A DNA stretch of 64,000 nucleotides from Pseudooceanicola nanhaiensis (lineage in GTDB: Bacteria > Pseudomonadota > Alphaproteobacteria > Rhodobacterales > Rhodobacteraceae). The notes under the pieces were generated by a model, which ran no database searches, was not told where the DNA came from, and saw only the letters and a list, made by a program, of their open reading frames with translations. Location: positions 124,001 through 188,000 of the forward strand of contig NZ_JAIUZP010000007.1 of NCBI RefSeq assembly GCF_020171315.1, written 5' to 3'. The position numbers were made by a program, and so were the translations under genes. Positions 105 through 29,031 of the stretch are shown here, piece after piece (position 1 is the stretch's first letter; every line of letters begins with the position of its first letter).

Positions 105-132
105 TGAGGAGGACGCGTGCAAGGAGACGGAC

Positions 133-4970: not shown

Positions 4971-5038
4971 TACCGGCCGGTTGAGCCTGCGGGCTCCGGA
5001 AGCCGGATCAAAAAACAGAACCGACAGGGGTGTATACC

Positions 5039-9728: not shown

Positions 9729-11204
9729 ATGAACAAGATGACCCAGACAGAGCCGGTAAAGAAGCTCCGCACCGGCGCCGAATACAAGGAATCCCTGAAG
9801 GATGGCCGCAAGGTCTGGTACGAGGGCGAGCTGCTCGACAGCGTCTTCGACGCGCCGCACCTCGCCAAGGGGATCGACCTGCTGGCCGAGATGTTCGATG
9901 ACCAGTTCGACCCCGAGTATGCCGAGGCGACCACCTATTTCGAACCCAAGGTCGGCGCCGTGGTCACCCGCTCGTGGCAGGCGCCCATGTCGATGGAAGA
10001 GCTGGCCGACCGCCGCAAGATGATCGAGTACACGGCCAAGAAGACCGCGGGCACCTATGGCCGTCCGCCGGATCTGGGCCCCTCGATCGCCATGGGCCTC
10101 TGGGCCTACCTGCCGACGTTCAAGAAGAAATCCTCGACCTTCGACGGGCTCAAGCCCGACTTCGCCGAGAACATCGAACGCTACATGGAATACGGGCGGC
10201 TCAACGGCATCACCTGTGCCGAAAGCCTCACCGGGCCCCAGAACGACCGCTCGCAGCCCATGGCGCAGGCCGCGTCGCTGCTGCGGGTCACCAAGGTCGA
10301 GAAGGGCGGCGTGCGCGTCTCGGGCGCGAAATCCGTGGGCTCCATCGCGGCGCAGACCAACGAGATCTTCTTCACCAACCTCGCCTATGGCGGCACCCCG
10401 CCCGAGGCCTGCATCTGGGGCTCCATCCCGATTGCCACCGAGGGGCTCAAGCTCGTCTCGCGTGAGTGCCTGTCCAACCCCGAGGCCGATCCCTTCGACC
10501 ACCCGCTGAACCACAAGGGCGAAGAGGCCGACCAGCTGGTGATCTTCGACAACGTCTTCGTGCCCGAGGACCGGATCTTCAACCTCGGTGACGAGGAACT
10601 GGTGGGCTACTACGGCAAGACCTGCAACTGGGCGCACTGGCACATCCTGACCCGCCTGATGGTCAAGGCAGAGCTCTTCGTCGGGACCGCGCAGGTGGTG
10701 CTCGACATCCTTGGCACCGGGCATATCCAGCCGGTGCAGGCGCTGGTCGCGGATATCATCCAGTACGCCCAGACCCTGCGCGCCTTCGTGCTGGCGGCCG
10801 AAAGTCAGGCCAAGCCGACCGAGAACGGCGTCTTCGCCCCCGACATCCCGCTGCTGACGGCAGGGCGGATGTACTCGATCCAGCATTACCCGAACATCAT
10901 CCACACCCTGCAGGAGCTTTGCGGTCAGGGCCTCGTGATGCGCTTCGGCAAGAAGGCCTTCGAAAACCCCGAGATCGGGCATCACCTCGAAGAGCTGCTG
11001 CCCGGTCACGGGGTCAGCGGGATGGAGAAGGAGCGGGTGATGAACTTCATCTGGGACCTGACCACCTCCTCCCACGCGGGCCGCGTCGCGCTCTTCGAGA
11101 ATGTGAACGCCACCCCTGCGCCGCTGCTGCGGATGCGTCTCTTCGGGGAATACGACCGGAGCGAGCACGTGAAGACCGCCCGCAAGCTGATCGGGATGGA
11201 CTGA
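9729..11204 (+). CDS. HpaB-family FADH2-dependent monooxygenase (copy 1)
   Basis: A 491-residue flavoprotein of the 4-hydroxyphenylacetate 3-hydroxylase large-component family (group D, acyl-CoA-dehydrogenase-like fold). These enzymes use reduced FAD supplied by a separate reductase to hydroxylate aromatic or N-heterocyclic rings. Family segments include RLNGITCAESLTGPQNDRS near 155-175, SGAKSVGSIAAQTNEIFF near 198-216 and the C-terminal helical domain ending WDLTTSSHAGRVALFENVN. It is a clear paralogue of the protein at 18753-20240, with long near-identical stretches. A matching reductase gene is at 21326. It is co-directional with the importer, suggesting it acts on the imported substrate. 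Not necessarily a phenol hydroxylase: pyrrole and pyridine hydroxylases occur in this family. Confidence 0.88.
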   Translation: MNKMTQTEPVKKLRTGAEYKESLKDGRKVWYEGELLDSVFDAPHLAKGIDLLAEMFDDQFDPEYAEATTYFEPKVGAVVTRSWQAPMSMEELADRRKMIEYTAKKTAGTYGRPPDLGPSIAMGLWAYLPTFKKKSSTFDGLKPDFAENIERYMEYGRLNGITCAESLTGPQNDRSQPMAQAASLLRVTKVEKGGVRVSGAKSVGSIAAQTNEIFFTNLAYGGTPPEACIWGSIPIATEGLKLVSRECLSNPEADPFDHPLNHKGEEADQLVIFDNVFVPEDRIFNLGDEELVGYYGKTCNWAHWHILTRLMVKAELFVGTAQVVLDILGTGHIQPVQALVADIIQYAQTLRAFVLAAESQAKPTENGVFAPDIPLLTAGRMYSIQHYPNIIHTLQELCGQGLVMRFGKKAFENPEIGHHLEELLPGHGVSGMEKERVMNFIWDLTTSSHAGRVALFENVNATPAPLLRMRLFGEYDRSEHVKTARKLIGMD

Positions 11205-11602
11205 TGGACAAGGCTGCGACGGTGGATGCCTTCTATGCCGCCTACAACAGCCACGATGCCGGGGCCGCCGCTGCGCTTTATGCCAGCGGCGGTCGCCACG
11301 TCGAGGCCGCCAGCGGCAAGGCCCGCGAGGGCCGCGATGCGCTGGAGGCGGGGCTGGTGGGCTTCTTCGGAATGCTGGACGGGCTGCGCTTTGACGAGGT
11401 GAAGCGTATCCATTCGGGAAACAATGTTCTGGTGGATTACGTGATGCGCGGCACCATGACCCGCGACCTCGGCCCGATGAAGGCCAAGGGGCAGGAGATC
11501 GCCTTGCCCGGCGTCCATGTCTTTACCTTCGAGGGGGACGAGATCGCCTCGACCACCGATTACTGGGACCCGTCCGAGTTCGGCCGGCAGGTGGCGGCAT
11601 GA
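11204..11602 (+). CDS. SnoaL/NTF2-like protein
   Basis: A 132-residue protein of the NTF2-like cone-fold type. The start DAFYAAYNSHDAGAAAALYA and the ending VHVFTFEGDEIASTTDYWDP are typical of SnoaL-like polyketide cyclase, isomerase or lyase domains. Start ATG shares one base with the stop of the monooxygenase (TGATG), so translation is coupled. Such small cone-fold proteins often isomerise, hydrolyse or bind an unstable intermediate. Here it may handle the hydroxylated product, but no catalytic residue can be assigned from sequence alone. Confidence 0.8.
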   Translation: MDKAATVDAFYAAYNSHDAGAAAALYASGGRHVEAASGKAREGRDALEAGLVGFFGMLDGLRFDEVKRIHSGNNVLVDYVMRGTMTRDLGPMKAKGQEIALPGVHVFTFEGDEIASTTDYWDPSEFGRQVAA

Positions 11603-12003: not shown

Positions 12004-12789
12004 TCAAGTCCAGGAAAGGAACCGGGTGTCACGTGGCAGGGCCGCGCGGACCTGCCGTGCGTGGTCGAGGGTGATCTCGCCCTCGGACAGCAGGTGGCCT
12101 TCGGCATCCAGCGCCCGGGCGTGGTAGGCACCGGCCGGGGGCAACATCTGCTCGTCCTCGAAGCGGAAACAATCCAGTCCCCAGGGCCGCACCGGCGTCA
12201 GCCACGGCCCGCCCAGAAGGTGGACCGCGCCCGCGATGTCGCCCCGCGCCACCAAGGCCCGGATGAAGCTGGAGGAGATGCGCCGTCCGGCGTCCTGAAC
12301 CTCGGCCACGGCGCGCAGGCCGAAGCCGTTCTCGCGCCCCATCCGGTCGAGCAGCGCCGCATCCCCGGACCGACGGCGGCCGAAGCGGAAATCATCCCCG
12401 CAGATCACCGCCGAGACCCCCAGCCGGGCCACCAGCAGGTCGTGCACGAAATCCGCAGGCTCCTGCCCGGCAAAGGCGGCATCGAAGCGCGGCGCAAAGA
12501 CATAGTCGAACCCGGCCTCGGCAAAGAGCCTGCGGCGTGCGGCGGCGCAGGACAGGCGCATCGGCGGCAGCTCGGGATCGAAAAAGGCGCGGGGGTGCGG
12601 ATCGGCGCACATGATCGCCAGCGGCGCACCCCCGGCCAGGTCGCGCCCTTCCTGCAAGAGGGCGCGGTGACCGCGGTGCATGCCGTCGAAATTGCCGAGC
12701 AGCAGCACCGCGCCCCGCAGGTGGGCGGGAACGGGAGTGGCCCCGTCCACCTGCGGCAGGTCAGAGACCTTCAAGCCAGTCGAAGACAT
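12004..12789 (-). CDS. FAD synthetase (RibF N-domain) without a normal riboflavin kinase domain
   Basis: About 261 residues, homologous to the FMN adenylyltransferase half of bifunctional RibF. It shows the nucleotidyltransferase signature GNFDGMHRGH at about 32-41 (HxGH), CADPHPRAFF, VICGDDFRFGRRRSGD and the SSSFIRALVARGDI segment. The flavokinase half is reduced to about 70 residues, and the usual GFPTAN motif is missing, so only FMN to FAD conversion is expected. The start is uncertain: ATG 12789 is used, 12807 is an alternative, and both overlap the end of the isochorismatase-family gene. As last gene of the operon led by the second flavin monooxygenase, it probably boosts FAD supply for that enzyme; the household RibF should be elsewhere. 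Confidence 0.8.
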   Translation of the reverse strand: MSSTGLKVSDLPQVDGATPVPAHLRGAVLLLGNFDGMHRGHRALLQEGRDLAGGAPLAIMCADPHPRAFFDPELPPMRLSCAAARRRLFAEAGFDYVFAPRFDAAFAGQEPADFVHDLLVARLGVSAVICGDDFRFGRRRSGDAALLDRMGRENGFGLRAVAEVQDAGRRISSSFIRALVARGDIAGAVHLLGGPWLTPVRPWGLDCFRFEDEQMLPPAGAYHARALDAEGHLLSEGEITLDHARQVRAALPRDTRFLSWT

Positions 12790-13420
12790 CGGAGACGGGC
12801 AGGACATCGGCGTACTTCTTGTGCATGTCGTAGAGGTTGGCGAAATGCGGGCTCTCGTGCAGGTCGGCCACGCATTCCTCGGGCACGATGGTGAAGTAGG
12901 AGCGCGACAGCGCATCCACCACCGTGGCGCGGACACAGCCGCTGGTGGAGCCGCCGGTGACGATGACGGTGTCGATCTTGTGGAAGGTCGCCAGCGATTG
13001 CAGGTGGGTCTCGAAGAAGGCCGAGGGCATCTTCTTGTTCAGCACGATATCGTCCTTGCCGATCACCAGGCGCGGGTCCAGCGCCGCGCGCTCGGAGCCG
13101 ATCTTGATCATCTTCAGGTCGTCCGGCGCGTCGCCACGGGTGCCGAAGACGCCGCAGTCATCGCCCATGTCGTTGAAGGCGACATAGGTCCAGACCACGG
13201 GCAGCCCCAGCTTGCGGTGCAGTTCGGCGAGGCGGTTCACGTAGTCCGCCTGCTTCGGATCGGTCTCGTAGGCGGTGACATAGGTGTCCGGCTGGGTATA
13301 GGCGCATTGCAGGTCCACGTTGACCAGCATCGGGCGCGTGCCGAAGCCATAGGGCTTGCGGGCCGGGTTTGCGCGCAGCTCTTCGAACATCTGGCGCGCG
13401 GTCTTGGGAGAGAGTTCCAT
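12761..13420 (-). CDS. Isochorismatase-family amidohydrolase
   Basis: A 219-residue cysteine hydrolase of the isochorismatase-like family, which includes N-carbamoylsarcosine amidase, nicotinamidase and maleamate amidohydrolase (NicF). The catalytic triad is visible: Asp36 (VNVDLQ), Lys130 (LNKKMPSAFF) and Cys162 in GGSTSGCVRATVVDA. The TSGCVR context is that of amide- or carbamoyl-hydrolysing members. In an operon with a NicX-like ring-opening dioxygenase, a maleamate-type deamidation is the obvious proposal, but the exact substrate is inferred only from context. Confidence 0.88.
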   Translation of the reverse strand: MELSPKTARQMFEELRANPARKPYGFGTRPMLVNVDLQCAYTQPDTYVTAYETDPKQADYVNRLAELHRKLGLPVVWTYVAFNDMGDDCGVFGTRGDAPDDLKMIKIGSERAALDPRLVIGKDDIVLNKKMPSAFFETHLQSLATFHKIDTVIVTGGSTSGCVRATVVDALSRSYFTIVPEECVADLHESPHFANLYDMHKKYADVLPVSDVFDWLEGL

Positions 13421-13485: not shown

Positions 13486-14568
13486 TTACGACGACATCCA
13501 GTCGAGCCAGCGGGTGCGCACCTCTTCGGCGTTCGCGCCCCACCATGTCTCGTCGATGTTCATGTTCTTCTCGGCGTTGGCGGGATAGCCTGGCAGCGTC
13601 TTGGCGTGCTCTTCCGGGATCGCGTCGTAGATCGAGGTATTGGCCATCGTGTAGGGCATCTGCGATGCGTATTCGCGCATCCCTTCCGCCTGCATCATCC
13701 AGGCGATCAGCTTCATGGCGTCTTCCTTGCCGGGCGCGTTCTTGGGAACGGTCCAGTAGGATTGCTCGACGATGGCCTGGTTGAAGTTGAAGTCGAAGTA
13801 GCCTTCCTTGCGGCCGGTCACCAGACGGCTGAGCGAGGCACCGCAGAGGTCCACTTCGCCCGATTCCATCAGCACGCCCCACTGCGAGGTGCGCTCGACC
13901 CAGAGGTCCACCTTGTCCTTGATCGCGTCGCAGGCCTCGAAGGCCTCGTCGATGCTGATCGGGTAGATCTCGTCCTTGGGCACACCGGCGGCCATCAGGG
14001 CGATCTCGAAGGTGGGGCGGGGCTGGGCATAGAGCCCGAGACGGCCCTTGAACTTCGACTCGTCGAACAGCTCCTGCCAGCTCTGCGGGCCTTCCTCGCC
14101 GATGGTCTTGGGGTTCCAGCCGATGCAGGTGGAGAAGGCGACCGAGCCGATGCCGTATTCCTTCATCACCTTGGGGTCGATCTGCTCCTTGGGCACGACC
14201 GAGAAGATCAGGTCATAGTCGATCGGCTCCAGCAGGTCCTTCTCGATCGCGACGAGCATCTGGGTGCCCTCGGTGTCGATCAGGTCCCACTCCACGTTGT
14301 TCACCTTGTCCATCACTTCGAGCTTGGACATGTCCGGGATCGCGGTGGCGGAGGTGGTGATGCCGGTGGCGTCGGTGAACTTGGAGAACCAGATCTGGTC
14401 CATGACGTCTGTGTAATGGCCGCCCCAGGTGCAGACGACCACATGGCCGTCGCCCTTGAGGATCTCGGCCACGTCCTGCGCGCGCAGTCCGGTCCCGACG
14501 AGAGAGCCGGCACCCGTGGCAGCAAGGCCGGCCAGCAGTTCGCGGCGTGACATTCCCTTGAATTTCAT
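13486..14568 (-). CDS. PotD-like ABC transporter substrate-binding protein, Tat-exported
   Basis: A 360-residue periplasmic binding protein of the spermidine/putrescine (PotD/PotF) type. The N-terminus MSRRELLAGLAATGAGSL after MKFKG has the twin-arginine motif followed by a weak hydrophobic stretch, so Tat export is likely. The mature part starts about AQDVAEIL, with VVCTWGGHYTDVMDQIWFSKF typical of the family. The ATG at 14568 is chosen over a longer frame because an AGGGATAGGA ribosome site precedes it. Partners are the permease and permease-ATPase fusion just upstream. Despite family naming the ligand need not be a polyamine; this transporter sits in an operon of ring-degradation genes. 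Confidence 0.88.
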   Translation of the reverse strand: MKFKGMSRRELLAGLAATGAGSLVGTGLRAQDVAEILKGDGHVVVCTWGGHYTDVMDQIWFSKFTDATGITTSATAIPDMSKLEVMDKVNNVEWDLIDTEGTQMLVAIEKDLLEPIDYDLIFSVVPKEQIDPKVMKEYGIGSVAFSTCIGWNPKTIGEEGPQSWQELFDESKFKGRLGLYAQPRPTFEIALMAAGVPKDEIYPISIDEAFEACDAIKDKVDLWVERTSQWGVLMESGEVDLCGASLSRLVTGRKEGYFDFNFNQAIVEQSYWTVPKNAPGKEDAMKLIAWMMQAEGMREYASQMPYTMANTSIYDAIPEEHAKTLPGYPANAEKNMNIDETWWGANAEEVRTRWLDWMSS

Positions 14569-14674
14569 AGTCCTATCCCTGTTGTTTGAGGAGGAGGAAC
14601 GGCCGGACCCTTCTGGGAGGTCTCGCACCGGGGAGAACGGGCGCAGCCAAGGGACCGCGCCCGGCAGGACGGCC

Positions 14675-16687
14675 TCAGGCCGCCATCACGTGGCTCATCT
14701 GCGGGGCCCAGGAGATCGACATCTCGCGCCCGGGCGCGGGGGCCGTGCTCTGCCCGTCGATGGGTTGCGTTGCGATGACCGTGCCCATCGGGCTGTCGAG
14801 CTCGATCCGAAGGGTCGACCCGAGGAAGCGGGCATCTGTCACCCGGCCGGGCAGCGCCCAGTCCGGGGCCTGTGCATCGTCGAGGCGGATCACCTCGGGG
14901 CGGACGCAGAGAACGGAGGCGCCGGACTGCGCCGTGGGCAACGGCAGCCGCCCGCCGGTGGCGGCCAGCGTCGTACCCGTCCCGGTGCCGGCAAAGAGGT
15001 TCGATTCCCCGAAGAAGCCCGCGACGAAGGAGTTGGCCGGCGAGAGGTAGAGATCGCGCGGCGTGGCGACCTGCTGCAGCTTGCCGTCGTTCATCACCGC
15101 GACGCGGTCGGACATGTTCATCGCCTCTTCCTGATCGTGGGTCACGAAGACGACGGTCTGGCCGAGGCTGCGTTGCAGGCTGCGGATCTCGCCCTGCATG
15201 TCGACGCGCAGGTTCCGGTCCAGCGCCGCCAGCGGTTCGTCCATCAGCAGGGCGCGGGGATCGAAGGCGATGGCGCGGGCCAGGGCGACGCGCTGCTGCT
15301 GGCCGCCGGACAGCTGGGTGATCCGGCGCTCGGCGTAATCCTCCATGTGCACCCGGCTCAGTGCCCATTTGATGCGGCGGGCCTGTTCGTCCTTCGACAT
15401 GCCGCGGGCGCGCAGCGGGTAGGCCACGTTGCGGGCGACGTTCATATGCGGGAAGAGCGCGTAGCTCTGGAACACGACGCCGATATCGCGCTGATGCGGC
15501 GGCACGAGGGAGATGTCGCGCTTGCCCAGCAGGAGGTGCCCGGCATCGGCCTGCGTGAACCCCGCGATCAGCATCAAGAGCGTCGTCTTGCCGGACCCGG
15601 AGGGCCCGAGGATGGTCACGAATTCGCCCGGCTCGACCTTCAGGCTCACATCCTCCACGGCGGCCTTGCCGTCGTAGAACTTGGACATGCGGTGGAAGGT
15701 GATGCCAAAGCCGTGCTGGCTGTCGCGGCCGGTCGAAGTGTCGGACATGAAGGGGAGCCTTTCACGCGGGAGGGAAGGGGCCGCCGGGGCCGTCTGCGGG
15801 GAAGGGGAGCCTGCAAGGGCCCCGGCGGCCGTCGCGCCCGGCACCGCCGCGGCCGAGAGCGAACGGGCTCTGGGCGCGGCCACGAGGGCCCGGCGCGCCC
15901 GGACTTTCGACCACAGCGCCTGCGCCGCCACGAAGGCCAGCACGAGGAAGAGCTGCAGCGAGGAGATCGCGGTAATCGTCTTGTCGAGGCCGTTCTGGGT
16001 GATCTCCTCCCAGATCTTGCGCGGCAGGGTCTCGAACCGGGGCCCTGCAAGGAGCTGCGCCAGCACCACCTCGTCGAAGGAGAAGATGAAGGCGAAGACC
16101 GCCGAGGCGATGATCGCGGGCACGAGAAGCGGCAGCGTCACCAGCCCAAGCGTGCGCCAGACATTCGCGCCGAGCGAGGCAGAGGCCCGTTCCAGCGCCG
16201 GGTCGAGGCTGGCCAGCCGCGACATCACCGGCATGACCACGAAGGGCAGCACGACCATGGCATGGGCCACCGAGAGCGGTGCGATCTGGCCCAGCAGGCG
16301 CAGCTTGGCAAAGATCACGTAGTAGCCGACGCCGATCACCATGAGCGGCACGATCATGGGCGCGATGAAGAAGATCTTCAGCGCGTTGCCCAGTCGGCCC
16401 CGGATGCGCGAGATGCCGATCGCCGCCGCCACGCCGAGGACGGTGGCAAAGAGCGTCGTCACCAGCGCCACCTGGAAGGAGAGCGAGGCCGCCCGCATCC
16501 AGCGCCGGTCGCTCAGCAGGTTGCGATACCATTCCAGCGACCAGCTGTTGGGCGTGAGCGTCAGCGCCTTGCCCGAGCCGAAGGAGATCGGCACGAGGAT
16601 CAGGACCGGAAGGATCACCACGAAGAGCATGATCCAGCCATAGATTTTCAGGGCGCGGCGGCCGTTCGGTCCAAGCAGCAGGTCCAT
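14675..16687 (-). CDS. Fused ABC permease-ATPase (PotC-like plus PotA-like) of the polyamine-type importer
   Basis: One uninterrupted 670-residue frame encodes two transporter subunits. Residues 1-265 are a PotC-like permease with six hydrophobic segments and an EAA-loop region about 168-190 (LGANVWRTLGLVTLP). Residues about 266-313 are an Ala/Pro/Arg-rich linker. Residues 325-670 are a PotA-like ATPase: Walker A GPSGSGKTT 361-369, Q-loop VVFQSYALFPHM, signature LSGGQQQR 459-466, Walker B LLMDEP 480-485, His517, then a TOBE-like C-terminal domain. Normally these are separate genes. An internal ATG (codon 314, position 15748) preceded by GAAAGG could also start a free ATPase. The other permease gene ends one base upstream. 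Confidence 0.85.
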   Translation of the reverse strand: MDLLLGPNGRRALKIYGWIMLFVVILPVLILVPISFGSGKALTLTPNSWSLEWYRNLLSDRRWMRAASLSFQVALVTTLFATVLGVAAAIGISRIRGRLGNALKIFFIAPMIVPLMVIGVGYYVIFAKLRLLGQIAPLSVAHAMVVLPFVVMPVMSRLASLDPALERASASLGANVWRTLGLVTLPLLVPAIIASAVFAFIFSFDEVVLAQLLAGPRFETLPRKIWEEITQNGLDKTITAISSLQLFLVLAFVAAQALWSKVRARRALVAAPRARSLSAAAVPGATAAGALAGSPSPQTAPAAPSLPRERLPFMSDTSTGRDSQHGFGITFHRMSKFYDGKAAVEDVSLKVEPGEFVTILGPSGSGKTTLLMLIAGFTQADAGHLLLGKRDISLVPPHQRDIGVVFQSYALFPHMNVARNVAYPLRARGMSKDEQARRIKWALSRVHMEDYAERRITQLSGGQQQRVALARAIAFDPRALLMDEPLAALDRNLRVDMQGEIRSLQRSLGQTVVFVTHDQEEAMNMSDRVAVMNDGKLQQVATPRDLYLSPANSFVAGFFGESNLFAGTGTGTTLAATGGRLPLPTAQSGASVLCVRPEVIRLDDAQAPDWALPGRVTDARFLGSTLRIELDSPMGTVIATQPIDGQSTAPAPGREMSISWAPQMSHVMAA

Positions 16688-16688
16688 C

Positions 16689-17636
16689 TCAGCGCCCCTT
16701 GTCGAAGAGTTTGTCCACGCCCGCGATGCGGTCGTAGATGAGCAGAAGGACGAGGCAGATCAACAGCAGCACCATCGAGGTCGCGGCGGCCAGTTCGAGA
16801 TCGCCCAGCTTCTGGATTTGGTCGCGCACCGCCAGCACGATGGTGGGCGTCCGCCCCCCGCCGAGGATCGCGGGCGTCACGAAGAAGCCGAAGGCCAGCG
16901 TGAAGACCAGCATCGACCCGGCCACGAGGCCGGGGAGGGAAAGCGGCACATAGACCTGGTAGAAGACCTGGAAAGGCTTGGCCCCCAGCGAGAGCGCGGC
17001 GCGCACATAGGCCGGGTCGATCGCCTTCATGCTGGGGATCAGGGTGATCACCATGAAGGGCAGCAGGATGTGGATCATCCCGATGTAGACGCCGACTTCG
17101 TTGTAGACCAGTTCCAGCGGGCCGGAGGTGATGCCGACGGTCTGGAGGATCGTGTTCACCACCCCGTTGCGTTGCAGGATGATGATCCACGCGAAGGTCC
17201 GCGCCAGGAAGCTGAGCCAGAGCGAGATGAAGAGCGTGATCGCCATCGCCTGCGCGTAGCGGCCCGGCAGGTTCACCATCAGGTAGGCGATGGGATAGGC
17301 CAGCAGGGCGCAGGCCAGCGTGGTGAAGAAGGCGAGCCGCAGCGTGAAGTAGAGCAGCCGGAGGTAGACCGGCTCGACCACCCCGCGGAAGTGGACGAGG
17401 GTGAAGCCCTCGCCCGACCAGCCGCCGAAGCTCATCCAGAGCAGGGTGAAGAGCGGCGCGAGGAAGAAGAGCGCCATGCAGATCATCGGCAGCGCCATGA
17501 GCGCCAGCGTCAGGCGCCGGCGCTGAAGCTCCCAGCTGCCGGAAGAGGGGCGGCCGGAAGGACGGCCGGAAGGACGGGCGGAGGGCGGCAGGCCCTCCGC
17601 GGCATCGGTCTCGACGATGGCGGCATCGCTGCTCAT
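16689..17636 (-). CDS. PotB-like ABC transporter permease
   Basis: A 315-residue permease of the binding-protein-dependent (PotB/PotH) type with six hydrophobic segments starting about residue 42 and the EAA loop AALSLGAKPFQVFYQVYVPLS near 212-232. It has an unusual N-terminal extension of about 35 residues with a PSGR repeat (PSGRPSGRPSSG), encoded by a 12-bp DNA repeat; this part is probably disordered in the cytoplasm. It pairs with the fused permease-ATPase whose start lies one base after its stop. The NicX-like gene ends ten bases upstream. Confidence 0.9.
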   Translation of the reverse strand: MSSDAAIVETDAAEGLPPSARPSGRPSGRPSSGSWELQRRRLTLALMALPMICMALFFLAPLFTLLWMSFGGWSGEGFTLVHFRGVVEPVYLRLLYFTLRLAFFTTLACALLAYPIAYLMVNLPGRYAQAMAITLFISLWLSFLARTFAWIIILQRNGVVNTILQTVGITSGPLELVYNEVGVYIGMIHILLPFMVITLIPSMKAIDPAYVRAALSLGAKPFQVFYQVYVPLSLPGLVAGSMLVFTLAFGFFVTPAILGGGRTPTIVLAVRDQIQKLGDLELAAATSMVLLLICLVLLLIYDRIAGVDKLFDKGR

Positions 17637-17646
17637 GTCATGGCCC

Positions 17647-18681
17647 TCAGGCGGCCATTTCGGGGATCATCATCTTTCCGTTCTCGACGATGGTCTGCCC
17701 GTCGAGCTTCAGCGTGTGCCGGCGCAGCGGGATGTCGAGGTGGCAGGCGGTGTCATTGTTGCCGCCCAGTTCCGTGTTCGGCCCGAGCGAGAACAGCACG
17801 TTGCCGTGCCATGACAGCATGTTCACGCCGATCTCGGCGTCGCGGGTCTTGGTGATGATGTTGGAATACCACTTGGCCGAGGGCAGCAGACCCCAGCCGA
17901 TGTGGCTGATCGCATAGGCCCGCGGGTCGTTGTAGCTGTCCATGAAGTCCTTCATCATCGCGGCATCGATGCCTTCGCCGTCGATGGAGGTGACATAGCC
18001 GTCGCGGATCGTCAGCTCGACCGGGCGCTCCACGTGACGCTTGAAGGCGACGATGGCATCGCCGGGCGCGATGACGACCTTGCCGTTCACCTTGCCGTCG
18101 ACCCCCTGGCTGAGGACCTGCCCCGTGCCCATGTGGTCCCAGCGGCCCGGCTCGTCGGTGTAGCCATATTGCGTCATGACGCGATACTGGCCCAGTTCGT
18201 AGGTCACGTCGGTGCCGTTGTCCGAGGTGATGTGCATGGTCTTGGCCGCGCCCAGCAGTTTCTCACCGTATTCGACGCGCGCGCGCAGCTCCGGCGAGGG
18301 CATGTTCTGGGCGAGGATGTCGAAGGGTTCGCGCACGAAGAGCATCCGCGTGCCGGTGGCGCAGATCTCGTTCTGCTCGTGGGAGAAGAGCATCCCCATC
18401 AGGTCGATGACGATGTCGGCCTTCTTCAGCGTGTCGATCACCGGCAGGTTGCCCGCGATGGCGGTGCGGCCGACCATCGACTTCATCACCCGGGTCTCGC
18501 GCAGCGGCACGTTGATCAGGAAACTGTTCGCGCCCATCTCGCGGGCCGCCAGCAGGAAGGCCTCGCCGTAATCGGCGCGGATGTCGCCCTCCGTCAGCAC
18601 GATCACCGTCTCGTGCGGCTTCACCTTGCAGAGTTCCAGTTGCTTGGTGAAGACCTTCACCATTTCAAGTTGGGTTGCCAT
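17647..18681 (-). CDS. NicX-like Fe(II) ring-opening dioxygenase
   Basis: A 344-residue protein resembling 2,5-dihydroxypyridine 5,6-dioxygenase (NicX), an iron(II) extradiol enzyme with an aminopeptidase-like (M29-type) fold that opens dihydroxypyridine to N-formylmaleamate. Candidate iron ligands are His260 (AISHIGWG), His314 and Asp316 (CHLDIPL). Their spacing agrees with the His-His-Asp set I recall for Pseudomonas NicX. Translation starts after AGGGGACAGAG. It lies between the second HpaB-type monooxygenase and the ABC importer, consistent with acting on the hydroxylated ring. Related metallopeptidase-like proteins are sometimes annotated as leucyl aminopeptidases, so the ring-cleaving role rests on the ligand pattern and context. 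Confidence 0.75.
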   Translation of the reverse strand: MATQLEMVKVFTKQLELCKVKPHETVIVLTEGDIRADYGEAFLLAAREMGANSFLINVPLRETRVMKSMVGRTAIAGNLPVIDTLKKADIVIDLMGMLFSHEQNEICATGTRMLFVREPFDILAQNMPSPELRARVEYGEKLLGAAKTMHITSDNGTDVTYELGQYRVMTQYGYTDEPGRWDHMGTGQVLSQGVDGKVNGKVVIAPGDAIVAFKRHVERPVELTIRDGYVTSIDGEGIDAAMMKDFMDSYNDPRAYAISHIGWGLLPSAKWYSNIITKTRDAEIGVNMLSWHGNVLFSLGPNTELGGNNDTACHLDIPLRRHTLKLDGQTIVENGKMMIPEMAA

Positions 18682-18752: not shown

Positions 18753-20240
18753 TCAGAAGTCGAGCGCGGCCAGTTCCCGCACCAGCCCGGTCATCGGGGT
18801 GCGGTCGAATTCGTTGAAAAGACGCTCGCGCAGGCGCGGAGCGGGGCTGGCGTTCACGTTCTCGAAGAGCGCGACGCGGCCCGCGAGGGAGGAACAGGTG
18901 AGATCCCAGATGAAGTTCATCAGCTGTTCCTTCTGCATCCCCGACACGCCCTTGCCCGGCAGAAGCTCCTCGAGGTGGTGCTTGATGTCGGGGTTGTTGA
19001 AGCTGTCCTTGCCGAACCGCATGACGAGGCCCTGGCCGCACATTTCCTGCAGGGTGTGCACGATCTGCGGGTAGTGGCGGATCGAATGCAGCCGGCCGGC
19101 GGTGATCATCGACACGTCGGGCGCCATGGTGCCCATGGCGGTGGGCTTGGCGTTGGCCTCGGCCGCGACGATGCAGGCCTCCAGCACGCGGTTGTATTCC
19201 ACGATGTCGCCCAGCATGGCGCGCACGGCGGGGATTTGGTCGGTGCCGAGGATCTCAGTGATCAGCTGCGCACAGCCCACGAAGATCTCGGACTTCACCT
19301 TGATCCGGGTCAGCACGTGCCAATGCGCCCAGAGGGTCGCCTTGCCGGACAGGGCCAGCACGTTCTGGTCGCCGAGGTTGAAGATCCGGTTCTTGGGCAC
19401 GAAGACGTTGTCGAAGATCACCAGCTGATCGGCTTCCTCGCCCTTGTGGGTCAGCGGGTGGTCAAAGGGGTCTTCCTCCGGCTGGCTCAGCATTTCGCGG
19501 CTGACCAGCTTGATGCCGTCGGAATTGATCGGAACCGAACCCCAGATGCAGGCCTCGGGCGGGGTGCCCGGATAGCCGAGGTTGGTGAAGAAGATCTCGT
19601 TGGTCTGCGCCGCGATGGAACCCACGGATTTCGCGCCCGAGATATAGACGCCCTCCTTGGTCACCTTCTTCACCTTCAGCAGGGATGCCGCCTGCGCCAT
19701 GGGCGAGGAGCGGTCGTTCTGCGGGCCGGTCAGGCTTTCTGCGCAGGTGATCGAGTTCAGGCGGCCGTATTCGACATATTCCTGCACGTTCTCGAAGAAG
19801 TCGGGCTGGCATTCGTCGAAGGAGGACTTCACGCCCTTGAATTCATGGGCATTCGCCGCGATGCCGATGGCGATCGTCGGGCCCAGGTCGATGGGCCGCC
19901 CGAAGGTGCCCGCCGTCCGGCGCGAGGTGAATTCGATCATCTTCCGGCGGCCGATCATCTCGTCCACCGTCTTGGGCTCCTGCCACGAGCGGCCGACGAT
20001 CTTGCCGGTCTTGGGATCGAGGCAGGTGGTGGCGTAGGAATGCTCCTCGGTGAACTGGTCGTCGAACATGGAGGCCATCAGCTTGATGCCTGCCGCCAGT
20101 GCGGGGACATCCATCACGTGGTCGATCTTGCGCCCCTTCACCCAGAGCTGCCGCCCGTCATCGAGCGACGAGATGAACTCGTCCCCGGTCTTGAGCGCGT
20201 GCGCCGCGCCGCCCTTCAGGCTTGCGAATGTACCGTCCAT
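18753..20240 (-). CDS. HpaB-family FADH2-dependent monooxygenase (copy 2)
   Basis: A 495-residue paralogue of the enzyme at 9729-11204. Shared blocks include SITCAESLTGPQNDRSSPM near 155-175, ISGAKSVGSIAAQTNEIFFTN near 202-222 and the ending LEELLPGKGVSGMQKEQ then FIWDLTCSSLAGRVALFENVN. It belongs to group D flavin monooxygenases that need a free reduced-flavin supply, here plausibly from the reductase at 21326. It heads the long minus-strand operon NicX-like, ABC importer, amidohydrolase, FAD synthetase. The most economical role is ring hydroxylation producing the diol substrate for the NicX-like enzyme. Divergent from the second FCD regulator, with operator repeats between. Confidence 0.88.
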   Translation of the reverse strand: MDGTFASLKGGAAHALKTGDEFISSLDDGRQLWVKGRKIDHVMDVPALAAGIKLMASMFDDQFTEEHSYATTCLDPKTGKIVGRSWQEPKTVDEMIGRRKMIEFTSRRTAGTFGRPIDLGPTIAIGIAANAHEFKGVKSSFDECQPDFFENVQEYVEYGRLNSITCAESLTGPQNDRSSPMAQAASLLKVKKVTKEGVYISGAKSVGSIAAQTNEIFFTNLGYPGTPPEACIWGSVPINSDGIKLVSREMLSQPEEDPFDHPLTHKGEEADQLVIFDNVFVPKNRIFNLGDQNVLALSGKATLWAHWHVLTRIKVKSEIFVGCAQLITEILGTDQIPAVRAMLGDIVEYNRVLEACIVAAEANAKPTAMGTMAPDVSMITAGRLHSIRHYPQIVHTLQEMCGQGLVMRFGKDSFNNPDIKHHLEELLPGKGVSGMQKEQLMNFIWDLTCSSLAGRVALFENVNASPAPRLRERLFNEFDRTPMTGLVRELAALDF

Positions 20241-20306: not shown

Positions 20307-20605
20307 TCAACCATCGCAGCCCAGAATCATGATTTGTGTCAACCATCGCATGAACCTCTCTCAACCAAATGGCCGTTGGGCGGGCCGTGTTCGGGCGTTT
20401 TTCGGGCAAAGATGACTGCGGGCCTCGCCATTGGATGCCATGATTTTCTGAGGTAATCACGGATCTGACCCGGGTCTGGCGCGATTTTGAGCAAATTCCC
20501 GCGGCAGGGGGCCAACCGGGCGCGCTGCTGGAATTGAAAGCAAAACGCGCTCTGGTTGTCGTGATTCTCGCCAACCAGCGTCAACCAATGACGCATTTGG
20601 TTGAC
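20307..20605. promoter_or_regulatory. Divergent control region with strongest TCAACCA operators
   Basis: The 417-base gap 20241-20657 contains no gene. Near the monooxygenase side are two copies of TCAACCATCGCA (20307-20318 and 20339-20350) and TCAACCAAAT (20361-20370). Near the regulator side is a 9-bp perfect inverted repeat, GTCAACCAA at 20580-20588 and TTGGTTGAC at 20597-20605 with an 8-bp spacer, plus CTGGTTG (20552-20558) pairing with CAACCAG (20572-20578). These match the motif in the other two control regions of the cluster. Inference: operators for the FCD regulator encoded just downstream. Confidence 0.6.
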
Positions 20606-20657
20606 AGCGGCTCGGGCGGCATGGTTGCCTGACGGGGAACACCCCATTGGAGCCGCG

Positions 20658-21329
20658 ATGACAGATCAGACACAGGTTTCCGAACCGAGGCTGGACCAGC
20701 TGGTAGAGCGTCTGCGGAGTCACGTCACCGGGCTGAAGCGCCTGCCAAGTGAACGCCGTCTGGCCGAGACGCTGGGGGAAAACCGCTACATGCTGCGCCG
20801 GGCGCTGGCCGTGCTGCGCGACGCGGGCGACTTGCCGGCGCTGCCCGCGCGCGAACGGCGCGAAGACGTGGCCGATCAGAGGCAGGCGCTGCTTCATGGC
20901 ACCAACCCGGTCGAGATGTGGGAACTGCGCCTGATGTTCGAACCGGACCTCGCAAGGCTCGCCTCGCTGCGGGCCTCTCCGGGGGAGATCGAGCAGCTCG
21001 CCCGGATCCACGCCGACACCGGCCAGACCGCCTTCGACCTTGAGGCGGATATCGCCTTTCACTGCCTCATCGCCCGGGCCAGCCGCAATTCGCTGGCCTA
21101 TTTCGTCGTCGAACTGCTCACTGATCTGACCCGCGACGATACCTTCCGCATGTTGCTGCCCGCCTTCACGCAGGAGACGGGCTTCGACCACCACCAGATG
21201 ATTCTCGACGCGATCCGCGACCGGGAGCCAGCCCGGGCAGAGGCGGCCATGCGGCTGCATCTCTCTGCCATTCACCGCTGGCTGACCGGCTTCCCGGACG
21301 ACAGCCTGACGCAGGAGCCCCCGAAATGA
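20658..21329 (+). CDS. GntR-family regulator with FCD ligand domain (paralogue 2)
   Basis: A 223-residue repressor with an N-terminal winged helix (LPSERRLAETLGENRYMLRRALAVL) and a helical FCD domain (MWELRLMFEPDLARLASL; DIAFHCLIARAS with a metal/ligand-type His; DHHQMILDAIRDREPARAEAAMRLHL). The ATG at 20658 follows TTGGAG; an ATG at 20601 would overlap the strongest palindrome and is less likely. Its stop overlaps the flavin reductase start (ATGA), so the regulator is cotranscribed with that reductase and the aminotransferase. Paralogous to the regulator at 3963-4637. Confidence 0.88.
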   Translation: MTDQTQVSEPRLDQLVERLRSHVTGLKRLPSERRLAETLGENRYMLRRALAVLRDAGDLPALPARERREDVADQRQALLHGTNPVEMWELRLMFEPDLARLASLRASPGEIEQLARIHADTGQTAFDLEADIAFHCLIARASRNSLAYFVVELLTDLTRDDTFRMLLPAFTQETGFDHHQMILDAIRDREPARAEAAMRLHLSAIHRWLTGFPDDSLTQEPPK

Positions 21330-21850
21330 CCGCTGCCATGACCGCCGAACTGCCCCATCCCTCGATCGACGCGCAGGCCTTCCGCAGTGCCATGCGCCGT
21401 CCGGCCAGTGCCGTGGCCATCGTCACCGGCGGGCTGCCCGGGGACCGGGCGGGCGTCACCGTCACCGCGGTCTGCTCGCTCTCCGACACGCCGCCGATGG
21501 TGCTGGCCTGCGTCCACCGAGACAGCAGTGCGCTGCCGATCCTGCGTGCGGGCGGCGTGTTCTGCGTCAACTTCCTTTCTGCCGCCCAGACCGATGTCGC
21601 GGGCCTCTTTGCCGGGCGCGGCGGGCTGAAGGGCGAGGACAGGTTCAGCGCGGTGGACTGGGTGCAGCGGGTCTCGGGCGCGCCGGTGCTGGCCGGGGCG
21701 CTCGCCTCCTTCGATTGCGTGCTGGAGCAGGAAATCGACAGCGCGACCCATGCGATCCTCGTGGGCCGTGTCGTCGCCATCGACGCGGGCACCGACCCGG
21801 CGCCGCTGGTCTACAATGACGGCGCCTTCGGTGGCGTCGTTCCGATCTGA
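21326..21850 (+). CDS. Flavin reductase (HpaC-like small component)
   Basis: A 174-residue protein of the split-barrel FMN-binding flavin reductase domain family. It has the typical start FRSAMRRPASAVAIVTGG, VTVTAVCSLSDTPPMVLACVHRDSS, GVFCVNFLS and the C-terminal H(A)ILVGRVVAID block. Enzymes of this kind reduce free FAD or FMN with NAD(P)H and hand it to HpaB-type oxygenases. No other HpaC-type gene lies beside either monooxygenase, so this one may serve both. A second ATG at 21338 is possible. Coupled by ATGA overlap to the regulator gene. Confidence 0.88.
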   Translation: MTAAMTAELPHPSIDAQAFRSAMRRPASAVAIVTGGLPGDRAGVTVTAVCSLSDTPPMVLACVHRDSSALPILRAGGVFCVNFLSAAQTDVAGLFAGRGGLKGEDRFSAVDWVQRVSGAPVLAGALASFDCVLEQEIDSATHAILVGRVVAIDAGTDPAPLVYNDGAFGGVVPI

Positions 21851-21869
21851 TCCGGCAGGAGACAGCCCC

Positions 21870-22979
21870 ATGACATGGTCCCCCTTCCCGCAGGCGCCCA
21901 CCTATCCCGCCAGCGGCTTCGCTCCGCTGGCCGACCGGGTGGCGGCCCTGATGAAGACCGCGAATGACGTGGTTCTGGTGCAGGGCGAGGCGGTGATCGC
22001 GCTGGAGGCGGCGGCCTCCTCTCTGGCGCGTCCGGGCCTCAGGGCGCTGAATATCGTCAGCAGCCCCTATGGCGCGTGGTTCGGCGAATGGCTACGGCGC
22101 GGCGGCAGCGATGTCACAGACCTGCGCGCCACGCCGGGCAAGCCGATCACGGTCGAGGCGGTGCAGGCGGCGGGCACCGGGTTTGATCTCGTGGCGGTGG
22201 TGCATGCGGAATCGGCCACCGGCATCCTGAACCCGCTGCCGGAGATCGCGGCCTTCGCCAAGGCACAAGGTGCGCTGATGGTGGTGGATGCGGTGGCCTC
22301 CTTCGGCGGGCATGCCCTCGATGTGGATGCGCTCGGCCTCGACGTGGTGGTGACGGGCATGCAGAAGTCCCCGGGCGGGCAGGCGGGCCTTTCCGTCGCC
22401 GCGATCAGCCCGGCGGCATGGGCCGCGATGTCGCTGCCCGGTGCTGCGCCGTCTGCGCTCTGCCTGCAGGACCTGAAACAGGGCTGGATCGAGACCGGCC
22501 GCGGTGCCCTGCCGGGGATGCCCTCGGGGCTGGAGTTTCACGCACTGGAGGCCACGCTCGACGCGGTCGAGGCGGAGGGTCTGGAGGCGCTGATCGCCCG
22601 CCACACGCTTGCCGGTGAGGCGATGCGCGCCGGGCTGGAGGCGATGGGCCTGCCGCTCTGGGTGCCCGGGGCGCAGGCCTCGAACCTTGTCACCGGCGGC
22701 TGGCTGCCCGAGGGGATCGACGCCGCCCTGCTCTGCGCCCATCCCGCGCTGATCGAAACCGGCACCGCGCCCGGCGTCGGGCCCGGGTCCGAGCGGATCC
22801 TGCGCCTGAACCACACCGGCCCGCGGGCCCGCTTCGAAACCGTGCTGTCGGTTCTGGGCGCATTGGGCTGCGCGCTTCGGGCCGCCGGGCAGGCGGTGGA
22901 CCTGGGCGCCGGGGCCGAGGCCGTGAGCGCCACCTATGCCGCCGCCTGGACCCCGGAGGCCCGCAAGGCGGCGGAATAA
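21870..22979 (+). CDS. Class V PLP aminotransferase resembling pyridoxamine-pyruvate aminotransferase
   Basis: A 369-residue fold-type I PLP enzyme of aminotransferase class V (serine-glyoxylate type). Visible parts are QGEAVIALEAAASSL near 35, HAESATGILNPL, the PLP Asp in VVDAVASFGGHALDVDALGLDVVVTG and the Schiff-base Lys in GMQKSPGG. The layout recalls pyridoxamine-pyruvate aminotransferase of vitamin B6 degradation, as well as serine-glyoxylate enzymes; family assignment between these is uncertain. Start ATG follows GCAGGAG, 19 bases after the reductase. In this cluster it may remove an amino group from the substrate or from a linear product, with pyruvate or glyoxylate as acceptor. Confidence 0.8.
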   Translation: MTWSPFPQAPTYPASGFAPLADRVAALMKTANDVVLVQGEAVIALEAAASSLARPGLRALNIVSSPYGAWFGEWLRRGGSDVTDLRATPGKPITVEAVQAAGTGFDLVAVVHAESATGILNPLPEIAAFAKAQGALMVVDAVASFGGHALDVDALGLDVVVTGMQKSPGGQAGLSVAAISPAAWAAMSLPGAAPSALCLQDLKQGWIETGRGALPGMPSGLEFHALEATLDAVEAEGLEALIARHTLAGEAMRAGLEAMGLPLWVPGAQASNLVTGGWLPEGIDAALLCAHPALIETGTAPGVGPGSERILRLNHTGPRARFETVLSVLGALGCALRAAGQAVDLGAGAEAVSATYAAAWTPEARKAAE

Positions 22980-23110: not shown

Positions 23111-24520
23111 ATGACCCCACCGCGCACGCTGGTCGAAAAGATATGGGCACAGCACGTCATCGGTGCGCCGCAGGAAGGGCGCGACCTGCTGCATGTGGAT
23201 CGCCACCTGCTGCACGACCTCGCGGGGGTGATCAGCCTTGAAGAGATGGAGGCCCGCGACCTGCATGTGCTGCGCCCCGATCTGACGCCCGCCATCCTCG
23301 ACCACACCGTTTCGACCCTGCCGGGGCGCGGGCCGGTCACCACGCGGATCAGCGAACGCTACGTCCCGACGATGGAACGGCTCTGCGCGCAGGAGGGCAT
23401 TCCGCTCTTCCGCCTCATGGGGCGGGGGCAGGGCATCGCCCATGTGGTCGGGCCGGAACAGGGGCTGATCCTGCCCGGCCTTCTTGTCGTCTGCGGCGAT
23501 AGCCATACGACGACGCATGGGGCGCTCGGCGCTCTCGCCTGGGGCATCGGATCGACCGAGGTGACCCATGTCCTGGCGACCCAGACGCTCTACCAGGCGC
23601 CGCAGAAGCAGCACCTCTACCGGCTGACCGGTCACCTGCGTCCGGGCGTGGGGGCCAAGGACGTGATCCTCTGGCTGATCGGGCGTTACGGCACCGCGGC
23701 GGGGGCGGGCGCCGCAGTGGAATTCGCCGGGCCCGTGATCTCGGACATGGGGATCGAGGACCGGATGGTGCTCTGCAACATGACGCTGGAGATGGGGGCC
23801 AAGGTGGCAATCATCGCCCCGGACCAGAAGACGCTCGACTATCTCGAAGGCCGCCCCTTCACGCCCACGGGCGCGCAATGGGAGGCGGCCAAGGCCGACT
23901 GGGCCACGCTCTACAGCGATCCCGATGCCGCCTTCGACCTCGTGCGCGAGGTCGATTGCAGCCAGATCGCCCCGCAGGTGACATGGGGCACGACGCCCGA
24001 ACTGGTGGGGGCCATCGACGCCCCGATCCCGGACCCGGAGGCCGAGGCCGATCCGGCGCGCCAGAGGCTGATGCGGGCGGCGCTCGACTACATGGGGCTG
24101 ATGCCGGGGCAGGTGCCGGGCGATCTGCCGGTGGACTGGGTCTTCATCGGGTCCTGCGCGGGAGGGCGGATCGAGGATCTGCGCAATGCCGCCGCCGTGG
24201 TGCGTGGCCGGCATGTGGCCGAGGGGCTGACCGCCTGGGTCGTGCCGGGCTCCACCGAGGTGCGGCTGCAGGCCGAGGCAGAGGGCCTTGACCGGGTGTT
24301 CACGGAGGCAGGGTTCGAATGGCGCCAGTCGGGCTGTTCGCTCTGCTCTGCCGCCAATGGCGAGACGGTGCCGCCGGGCGCGCGCTGTGTCTCGACCTCC
24401 AACCGCAATTTCGTGGGCCGTCAGGGGCCGGGGGCGCGCACCCATATCGCCAGCCCTGTCATCGCCGCCGCATCGGCCCTTGCCGGGCATATCGCGGCCC
24501 CGCTGGAGGCAGGCGCATGA
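23111..24520 (+). CDS. Aconitase-family hydratase, large subunit (LeuC-like)
   Basis: A 469-residue 4Fe-4S hydro-lyase related to 3-isopropylmalate dehydratase large subunit. The cluster cysteines are Cys349 (FIGSCAGGRIEDLR), Cys409 and Cys412 (GCSLCSAANGE). The substrate loop SCTNGR of true LeuC is SCAGGR here, hinting at a different substrate. Other family blocks are CGDSHTTTHGALGALAWGIG near 128-147 and STSNRNFVGRQG near 428. Relatives hydrate maleate, citraconate or dimethylmaleate. It is coupled by ATGA overlap to the small subunit and then to a C-C lyase, so a hydration-then-cleavage sequence on a maleate-type diacid is the likely role; leucine biosynthesis is unlikely. Confidence 0.85.
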   Translation: MTPPRTLVEKIWAQHVIGAPQEGRDLLHVDRHLLHDLAGVISLEEMEARDLHVLRPDLTPAILDHTVSTLPGRGPVTTRISERYVPTMERLCAQEGIPLFRLMGRGQGIAHVVGPEQGLILPGLLVVCGDSHTTTHGALGALAWGIGSTEVTHVLATQTLYQAPQKQHLYRLTGHLRPGVGAKDVILWLIGRYGTAAGAGAAVEFAGPVISDMGIEDRMVLCNMTLEMGAKVAIIAPDQKTLDYLEGRPFTPTGAQWEAAKADWATLYSDPDAAFDLVREVDCSQIAPQVTWGTTPELVGAIDAPIPDPEAEADPARQRLMRAALDYMGLMPGQVPGDLPVDWVFIGSCAGGRIEDLRNAAAVVRGRHVAEGLTAWVVPGSTEVRLQAEAEGLDRVFTEAGFEWRQSGCSLCSAANGETVPPGARCVSTSNRNFVGRQGPGARTHIASPVIAAASALAGHIAAPLEAGA

Positions 24521-25173
24521 GAGCCTTCGACACTGTCACCTCGCCCCTGCGCTACCTGCCGCGGGATCACGTCGACACCGACATGGTCATCCGCATCGAG
24601 CGGCTGGTCCTCGTGCCGCGCAAGGACCTCGGGGCCTATGCCTTCGAGATGCTGCGGCGCCTGCCCGACGGTACGCCCGATCCCGCCTGCACGCTGGATC
24701 GCCCCGGCTCCGAGGGTGCCGAGATCCTGCTGGCGGGGCGCAACTTCGGCTGCGGCTCCTCGCGGGAGGCGGCGGTTTGGGCGCTGGCGGGCTACGGTAT
24801 CCGCGCCGTGGTCGCGCAGAGCTTCGGCGACATCTTCCGGCAGAACTGCCTCAAGAACGGCATCCTGCCCGTCGCCATCGGCAAGGCGGCGCATGACGCG
24901 CTCATGGCCCGGGCCGAGCAGGAGCCTGCGATGCAGCTGACCATCGACCTGCCCGCGCAGGCCGTCGTCACGCCCGGCGGGCAGCGCATCCCTTTCGAGA
25001 TTCCGGCGGGCGAGAAAGACGCGCTCCTCAAGGGCGAGGACGACCTGGCCCGCACCATGGCCCGCGCCGAGGAAATCCGCGCCCATTTCGAGGCCGCCGA
25101 GGCCGCCCGCCCCTGGATGCGGATCGACCCCGGTCCGCTGGCAGAATTCACTTCAGACGAGGAAAGATCATGA
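24517..25173 (+). CDS. Aconitase-family hydratase, small subunit (LeuD-like)
   Basis: A 218-residue swivel-domain subunit. It shows DHVDTDMVIRIERL (the usual DxIDTDxI region), the signature NFGCGSSREAAVWAL at about 72-86 and VVAQSFGDIFRQNCLKNGILP. It should assemble with the LeuC-like subunit to complete the active site. Both flanking genes overlap by four bases, giving tight stoichiometry. The C-terminal extension after PFEIPAGEK is somewhat longer than in standard LeuD. Confidence 0.87.
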   Translation: MRAFDTVTSPLRYLPRDHVDTDMVIRIERLVLVPRKDLGAYAFEMLRRLPDGTPDPACTLDRPGSEGAEILLAGRNFGCGSSREAAVWALAGYGIRAVVAQSFGDIFRQNCLKNGILPVAIGKAAHDALMARAEQEPAMQLTIDLPAQAVVTPGGQRIPFEIPAGEKDALLKGEDDLARTMARAEEIRAHFEAAEAARPWMRIDPGPLAEFTSDEERS

Positions 25174-29029: not shown

Positions 29030-29031
29030 CC

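Follow-up and report, generated by a model that had tools for sequence, protein, structure and literature searches.

Vitamin B6 degradation pathway I of Mesorhizobium loti comprises PNOX, PPAT, 4-pyridoxolactonase, MHPCO and AAMS hydrolase, of which MHPCO opens the ring at the C2–C3 bond. Chlorophenol-4-monooxygenases act para to a hydroxyl group, and dimethylmaleate hydratase and 2,3-dimethylmalate lyase belong to nicotinate fermentation. The 2,5-dihydroxypyridine (DHP) 5,6-dioxygenase NicX of Pseudomonas putida KT2440, which turns DHP into N-formylmaleamate in the breakdown of vitamin B3, has been solved in several structures (7cn3, 7cnt and 7cup). NicX holds iron through His265, Ser302, His318 and Asp320; Glu177 forms bonds to N1 and O1 of the substrate DHP, and Arg293 keeps Asp320 in place. 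The alanine variant of Glu177 retains 2.7% activity, that of Arg293 retains none and no longer binds iron, and the authors state that NicX activity on any substrate but DHP is unreported (PMC7910607). In addition, two bacterial B6 pathways are mentioned in the introduction of a further paper, which names neither HpaB nor NicX there (PMC3538738). Among open PubMed Central papers, as far as their text was available, no description of HpaB acting with NicX in B6 breakdown was found.

Herein, a gene for a NicX-like Fe(II) ring-cleavage dioxygenase was analysed together with its surroundings in a 64,000-nucleotide stretch of Pseudooceanicola nanhaiensis DNA, hereafter the window (Table 1). The protein is homologous to P. 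putida NicX over 337 residues and shares its His/Ser/His/Asp iron site as well as the DHP contact His189, but it is 38% identical in the family alignment, lies in a non-nic gene set and carries Gln, Leu, Met and Gln at NicX positions 177, 293, 190 and 194. With B6 pathway I the locus shares the proposed substrate class, PNOX and PPAT homologues in sister clusters, and C2–C3 as the bond proposed to be opened; in contrast, MHPCO gave no match in the window genome at E 1e-20, and a two-component HpaB with a NicX-type dioxygenase stands in its place, accompanied by an amidase pair. Both window HpaB proteins show the HpaB domains and have a flavin reductase gene nearby, as in the HpaB/TftD/TcpA two-component flavin monooxygenases, yet they reach only about half the TIGR02309 cut-off for 4-HPA 3-monooxygenase HpaB (219.5 and 241.9 against 480.2 bits) and form their own subfamily, with 46–66% identity to its other branches and 25–30% to the two other HpaBs compared. 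Finally, a LeuCD-type hydratase adjoins an alkylmalate-lyase-like protein in one operon, which recalls dimethylmaleate hydratase and 2,3-dimethylmalate lyase; in the window, however, the pair follows a flavin reductase gene within an aerobic ring-cleavage set.

Altogether, the window NicX has, on balance, probably moved from DHP to a substituted dihydroxypyridine, most likely one derived from vitamin B6 such as 4-pyridoxate or a close analogue. The firm part of this reading consists of the homology, the four-residue iron site, the absence of two residues on which NicX depends for DHP, a gene set that is not of the nic kind, and a putative B6 importer encoded close by. The B6 assignment is good for a sister clade described below; for the window, where no PNOX and only a distant transaminase relative were found, we infer it as likely.

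Table 1. Genes and active-site codons of the window, with the basis of each assignment.
Feature	Position	Strand	Basis
Amidase A	76..1563	+	Pfam Amidase
Amidase B	1560..2864	+	Pfam Amidase
AbrB-family membrane protein	2871..3956	+	Pfam PF05145
FCD/GntR-type regulator	3963..4637	-	Pfam
BMP-family binding protein, putative B6 transporter	5030..6070	+	NF047927, 430.5 bits, above cut-off 400
ATPase, putative B6 transporter	6067..7644	+	NF047930, 731.3 bits, above cut-off 670
Permease 2, putative B6 transporter	7641..8711	+	NF047929, 422.9 bits, above cut-off 400
Permease 1, putative B6 transporter	8708..9643	+	NF047928, 461.9 bits, 3 bits short of cut-off 465
HpaB1, second HpaB of the HpaB2 subfamily	9729..11204	+	Pfam; 64% to HpaB2
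SnoaL/NTF2-like protein	11204..11602	+	Pfam; retained in sister clusters
RibF-like protein, FMN adenylyltransferase domain	12004..12807	-	Pfam FAD_syn; below full-RibF cut-offs
Isochorismatase-type cysteine hydrolase, maleamate-amidase-like (NicF-like)	12761..13420	-	Pfam and PDB matches
ABC solute-binding protein	13486..14628	-	Pfam SBP_bac_8
Pot-type ABC permease fused to ATPase	14675..16687	-	PotA-type, 349.6 of 355.6 bits
Pot-type ABC permease	16689..17636	-	NCBIfam PotB-type, below cut-off
NicX-like Fe(II) ring-cleavage dioxygenase, 344 aa	17647..18681	-	7cn3 phmmer match and fold match
Codon Asp316 (NicX Asp320, iron ligand)	17734..17736	-	alignment and codon read-back
Codon His314 (NicX His318, iron ligand)	17740..17742	-	alignment and codon read-back
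Codon Ser298 (NicX Ser302, iron ligand)	17788..17790	-	alignment and codon read-back
Codon Leu289 (NicX Arg293, essential in NicX), changed	17815..17817	-	alignment and codon read-back
Codon His260 (NicX His265, iron ligand)	17902..17904	-	alignment and codon read-back
Codon Gln171 (NicX Glu177, contact to N1/O1 of DHP), changed	18169..18171	-	alignment and codon read-back
HpaB2, oxygenase subunit of two-component flavin monooxygenase	18753..20240	-	Pfam HpaB_N/HpaB
FCD/GntR-type regulator	20601..21329 (start perhaps 20658)	+	Pfam
Flavin reductase (HpaC/RutF type)	21326..21850	+	Pfam; NCBIfam below cut-offs
Class V aminotransferase related to pyridoxamine-pyruvate transaminase	21867..22979	+	PPAT 2z9u best solved match
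LeuC-type hydratase large subunit (paralogue)	23111..24520	+	Pfam, NCBIfam
LeuD-type hydratase small subunit	24517..25173	+	Pfam, NCBIfam
PEP-mutase/ICL-type lyase	25170..26033	+	PDB matches

Identity and active site of the NicX-like protein

An open reading frame indeed lies where a preliminary description of this DNA had placed the gene, yet it runs on the minus strand, the plus strand being interrupted there by a stop. P. putida NicX (7cn3) matches its product at E 1.4e-69 and 238 bits over residues 6–342 (phmmer) and is also the top Foldseek match of the predicted model (E 1.7e-27, TM 0.72), M29 aminopeptidases showing weaker fold similarity; by both homology and fold, the gene belongs with NicX (EC 1.13.11.9). 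The same description had read an iron-site pattern from His260, His314 and Asp316, and all three align with iron ligands of NicX, Ser298 supplying the fourth. The complete set of ligands is present in 98 of 99 NicX-type sequences, a set gathered by similarity, and in all 17 members of the window clade (the window, 14 loci, one Thioclava plasmid and one Terrarubrum plasmid). Because the structural model, built from a 15-row alignment, is weak exactly at the loops concerned (pLDDT below 50 at 258–293 and 301–313), the metal site rests on sequence and not on geometry. In plasmid records such as H1–H3, H6, H7 and H9, relatives of the window gene are often annotated as "leucyl aminopeptidase", a name that the iron site makes doubtful.

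Among the residues around the substrate, Glu177→Gln and Arg293→Leu occur together in 17/17 window-clade members, and Glu177 is found in all 22 nic-cluster NicX sequences of the family alignment; alignment of the window protein to P. putida NicX also gives Trp190→Met and Phe194→Gln. Leu293 recurs in locus L134 and in Variovorax L188. As the Variovorax gene is accompanied by a Mo-hydroxylase and NicC-, NicD- and NicF-like genes, this residue need not mean a dead enzyme. His105→Phe was rejected as a marker, as nic-cluster NicX of the same bacterial family also carries Phe.

The distribution of residue 177 was counted in those 86 of 99 NicX-type genes in which all four ligands are present and each flank extends for at least 4 kb, the remaining 13 being left out; owing to shared ancestry among the rows, the counts do not represent independent events. 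Glu177 is present in all 24 genes with NicD and NicE nearby and Gln177 in all 19 with the amidase pair (amidA and amidB). HpaB-linked NicX carries Gln177 in 23 cases and Glu177 in one, from Peribacillus, which also has NicD and NicE. A further 16 of the 86 have Gln177 without a counted HpaB, namely 14 genes of a third clade, L027 (with an HpaB fragment) and L134. This third clade (L151–L160, L162, L164, L165 and L168) shows no HpaB nearby, and the member read by Pfam, L151, adjoins a xanthine-dehydrogenase-type gene.

A tree of 69 NicX rows was built with column 177 excluded. Uniting the two HpaB-linked clades as one (23 of the 69 rows) was rejected (AU p 1.1e-9), and the HpaB–NicX pairing therefore arose at least twice, while position 177 changed between Glu and Gln at least four times. 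An independent-pairs test of HpaB against Gln177 comprised only 4 pairs and was underpowered (median p 0.5).

Oxygenase partners, gene set and importers

HpaB2 lies 71 bp upstream of NicX, in keeping with the HpaB-type neighbour reported previously, and its nearest solved chains in the PDB are chlorophenol-4-monooxygenases. Within the common HpaB subfamily, sister-clade proteins are 59–65% and Peribacillus proteins 46–51% identical to HpaB1 and HpaB2. A search of 72,556 plasmid records returned 18 with an HpaB match; in 11 the protein is at least 47.9% identical to HpaB1, and NicX adjoins it in 11/11, the other seven matching at below 40%. The RibF-like protein may supply FAD to HpaB. A RibF-like gene is retained in window-type clusters, and a FAD-synthetase-like gene is found on the Peribacillus plasmid.

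The flanking genes had been judged not to be the usual nic set. This holds for NicB, NicC, NicD and NicE, none of which was found within 12 kb, so that the NicD and NicE pair typical of nic or pic sets is missing beside the window NicX; as a correction, a candidate for NicF, a NicF-like hydrolase matched best in the PDB by 4l07 and N-carbamoylsarcosine amidohydrolase, lies 4.2 kb downstream. For the same lack of NicB, NicC, NicD and NicE within 12 kb, nicotinate was rejected as the substrate. With the iron site intact, Glu177 and Arg293 replaced and the gene set neither nic nor pic, the sequence supports the earlier proposal of a ring substrate not yet assigned to this family. The candidates then listed (dihydroxypyridines, dihydroxypyrimidines and pyridine carboxylates) omitted vitamin B6, the class indicated by the neighbours, and nothing seen in the gene set supports a pyrimidine ring such as 5-hydroxyuracil.

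To the right of HpaB2, an operon runs from a regulator through flavin reductase and aminotransferase to LeuC, LeuD and the lyase. The aminotransferase is 36% identical to PPAT and scores 203.7 bits with the PPAT model NF046070, well below its cut-off (600), and the best solved relatives of the lyase are petal death protein and 2,3-dimethylmalate lyase. The window genome holds two further LeuC homologues (48–50% identity); at C4:241054-247382, a 48% homologue and another homologue of the lyase (42%) are some 4 kb apart.

At the left end of the window, three of four subunits of a BMP-type ABC importer pass the NCBIfam models for a "putative B6 ABC transporter", as do all six tested BMP binding proteins from HpaB/NicX clusters; this naming may rest on gene neighbourhood and would then be circular as evidence. 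The gene set gives the impression of serving uptake and breakdown of vitamin B6 or a closely related compound. No PNOX-like gene was detected in the window genome at E 1e-80, a GMC gene at 51437–52999 of the window showing 34% identity. Riboflavin breakdown, prompted by the RibF-like gene and the PnrA-type importer, which we liken to RfuA, was dropped once the importer matched the B6 models. As a comparison, the known PLP importer P5PA was set aside, being reported by its authors only in Pasteurellaceae (PMC8427247).

Sister clusters, window-clade loci and alternative substrates

The sister clade comprises 11 NicX loci (L057, L063, L078, L186, L193, L194, L211 and L221–L224), all with Gln177 and Arg293, and their 11 clusters combine the window's HpaB subfamily, a SnoaL protein and the importer with a PNOX-like GMC oxidase and PPAT. 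The GMC oxidase of L057 matches pyridoxine 4-oxidase 4ha6 at E 7e-179, the five transaminases compared are 61–65% identical to 2z9u, and the four scanned all pass the NCBIfam PPAT cut-off. Record annotations read "pyridoxine 4-oxidase" in Rhizobium sp. ACO-34A and "pyridoxamine--pyruvate transaminase" in R. daejeonense. Queries from ACO-34A detected the amidase pair in 9/11 clusters and the flavin reductase in 8/11, the ACO-34A cluster itself included, L057, L063 and L211 giving no match to the reductase query. In N. alkalisoli and N. lilium (L057 and L063), the PNOX/PPAT set continues directly into a window-type set, whose NicX stands about 13 kb from PNOX, and the amidase at its edge belongs to this window-type array. 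Two other ACO-34A genes were not counted as B6 enzymes, an MBL-fold gene that reached 47.6 of 325 bits as a 4-pyridoxolactonase and an SDR gene with 3-hydroxybutyrate dehydrogenase as its best solved match.

MHPCO was located near PNOX in one genome (G1269; 838 bits to 3alj), together with PPAT (65%). The other 20 genomes searched, including eight of the sister clade and that of the window, gave no MHPCO match above 90 bits; three sister-clade strains with a plasmid-borne cluster were left out of this whole-genome search. PNOX and PPAT sets thus include 11 with HpaB and NicX and one with MHPCO. Of the 249 genomes searched in the order to which N. alkalisoli belongs, 12 carry a PNOX-like gene, six of these with HpaB and PPAT, one with MHPCO, four in another cluster type and one on a contig too short for assignment. 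No HpaB, NicX or PPAT was seen in the four clusters of other type, of which L217 was read by Pfam. Because 4/12 PNOX-like matches sit in such clusters, PNOX identity is weakened as proof of B6, and the B6 reading leans on PPAT and the importer.

The window clade was compared through 14 loci, about 21 kb being read in most and L025 and L029 being cut by contig ends. Within the stretches read, full HpaB2 is present in 10/14, flavin reductase in 11/14, the cysteine hydrolase (at least 74% identity) in 12/14, the RibF-like gene in 13/14 and the amidase pair in 9/14. In L024 the cysteine hydrolase is divergent and a single amidase is present; in L023 HpaB1 and the BMP importer replace HpaB2 and the Pot-type genes, with the amidases further along. 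HpaB1, the BMP importer and HpaB2 occur together in the window and L035, and Thioclava has HpaB1 with the BMP importer. None of the 14 loci yielded LeuCD, the lyase or the aminotransferase; outside the clade, a LeuC homologue (about 32%) adjoins the NicX gene of L150, and a homologue of the lyase (about 41%) lies near that of L148. Among the 13 other window-clade genomes searched, close PNOX was detected only in Neorhizobium G299 and G300, where it lies about 13 kb from the window-clade NicX in one gene array, and G298 has one at 38%. As separate observations, no more than the last third of HpaB2 is seen beside NicX in Xaviernesmea oryzae (L027, 9503–9985), and the L034 cluster, from a record titled Acidobacteriaceae MAG, is nested among alphaproteobacterial ones, by transfer or misbinning.

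In 12/14 of these loci the stretches read show no BMP importer, and 13/14 show the Pot-type one. Together with the lack of a PNOX-like gene in the window genome at E 1e-80, this would suit some other hydroxylated N-heterocycle, such as a pyrimidine or a 3-hydroxypyridine outside the B6 group, with the B6 importer a neighbour by chance or one that has drifted in substrate. We consider this unlikely, since the PNOX/PPAT clusters contain counterparts of the window's HpaB1, SnoaL protein, importer, amidases and flavin reductase.

Marginally less probable still is an ordinary 2,5-dihydroxypyridine dioxygenase, for which HpaB would make DHP, for example from 3-hydroxypyridine or 5-hydroxypicolinate. 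A Peribacillus frigoritolerans plasmid (L189; NZ_OY970401.1, 1601–13023) carries two HpaBs that are 96% identical and a NicX with Glu177; this plasmid of a Gram-positive host also encodes NicD-, NicE-, NicF-like and FAD-synthetase-like proteins and appears to provide a pathway in which HpaB supplies plain 2,5-dihydroxypyridine. Its gene set fits an unsubstituted product, and the window too has NicF-like and RibF-like genes; the Peribacillus NicX, however, keeps Glu177 and Arg293, which the window enzyme does not, and neither NicD nor NicE was detected within 12 kb of the latter. It is very improbable that the protein is no oxygenase at all, but M29-aminopeptidase-like or inactive: the weaker M29 fold similarity, the lost Arg293 and the RefSeq name "leucyl aminopeptidase", shared by plasmid relatives, are outweighed by the match to NicX, which surpasses all others in fold and sequence by a wide margin, by the four ligands in 17/17 window-clade members and by Leu293 in the Variovorax set.

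A candidate route for vitamin B6 breakdown

If the substrate of the window NicX is derived from B6, the importer at 5030–9643, perhaps with the Pot-type one, would take up the vitamin or its acid. HpaB1 or HpaB2, using reduced FAD from the flavin reductase, could then hydroxylate C6, the position para to the 3-hydroxyl group; as B6 is a 3-hydroxypyridine, this would generate the 2,5-dihydroxypyridine pattern that NicX opens. Cleavage by NicX between C2 and C3 would yield an N-acetyl-substituted maleamate, N-acetyl and not N-formyl because C2 carries a methyl group in B6 and a hydrogen in DHP. Such a product is in keeping with amidases standing in for the deformylase NicD, and the two encoded here may free acetate. 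The cysteine hydrolase would release ammonia, LeuCD would hydrate the substituted maleate and the lyase would cleave the resulting alkylmalate, relatedness to petal death protein and 2,3-dimethylmalate lyase being as expected for a substituted maleate. Genes for the earlier reactions at the 4' carbon of the vitamin were not seen in the window.

The B6 reading is favoured by the importer scores, the PNOX/PPAT clusters of the sister clade, the Neorhizobium arrays, the HpaB–NicX pairing on plasmids and its repeated origin, the searches for MHPCO, the association of the amidase pair with Gln177 and of NicD and NicE with Glu177, and the lyase relatives. Against it stand the lack of PNOX in the window genome and of a close PNOX in all but two of the 13 other window-clade genomes searched, the low identity of the PPAT relative, the perhaps circular importer name, the loss of iron in the Arg293→Ala variant of NicX at a position where the window has Leu, and the 14 window-clade loci in which LeuCD, lyase and aminotransferase were not found. 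Gln177 in the HpaB-less third clade, the independent-pairs result and PNOX-like GMC oxidases in four clusters of other type also count against it.

More tentatively, and at somewhat less than even probability, these clusters may represent a third B6 degradation route in Alphaproteobacteria, in which C6 hydroxylation by HpaB and a C2–C3 cut by a re-tooled NicX replace MHPCO. NicX would have been recruited at least twice, each time with Gln177, and the window version would end in an alkylmaleate hydratase and an alkylmalate lyase. A natural family that retains the iron site and swaps the substrate contacts would show how a Ser-ligated dioxygenase sets specificity. Should the B6 reading be true, it would give soil and marine bacteria a new way to destroy an essential vitamin, and residue 177 (Glu or Gln) and the gene set would serve as markers for finding the route.

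Two minor observations concern the wider family and the window. In the L079–L087 branch of NicX relatives, position 177 is Thr or Val and the iron ligands are retained, L079 adjoining an acyl-CoA dehydrogenase gene. Furthermore, a BioY-family protein and a weak CbiQ-type neighbour at 28403–29574 of the window probably form a biotin ECF transporter.
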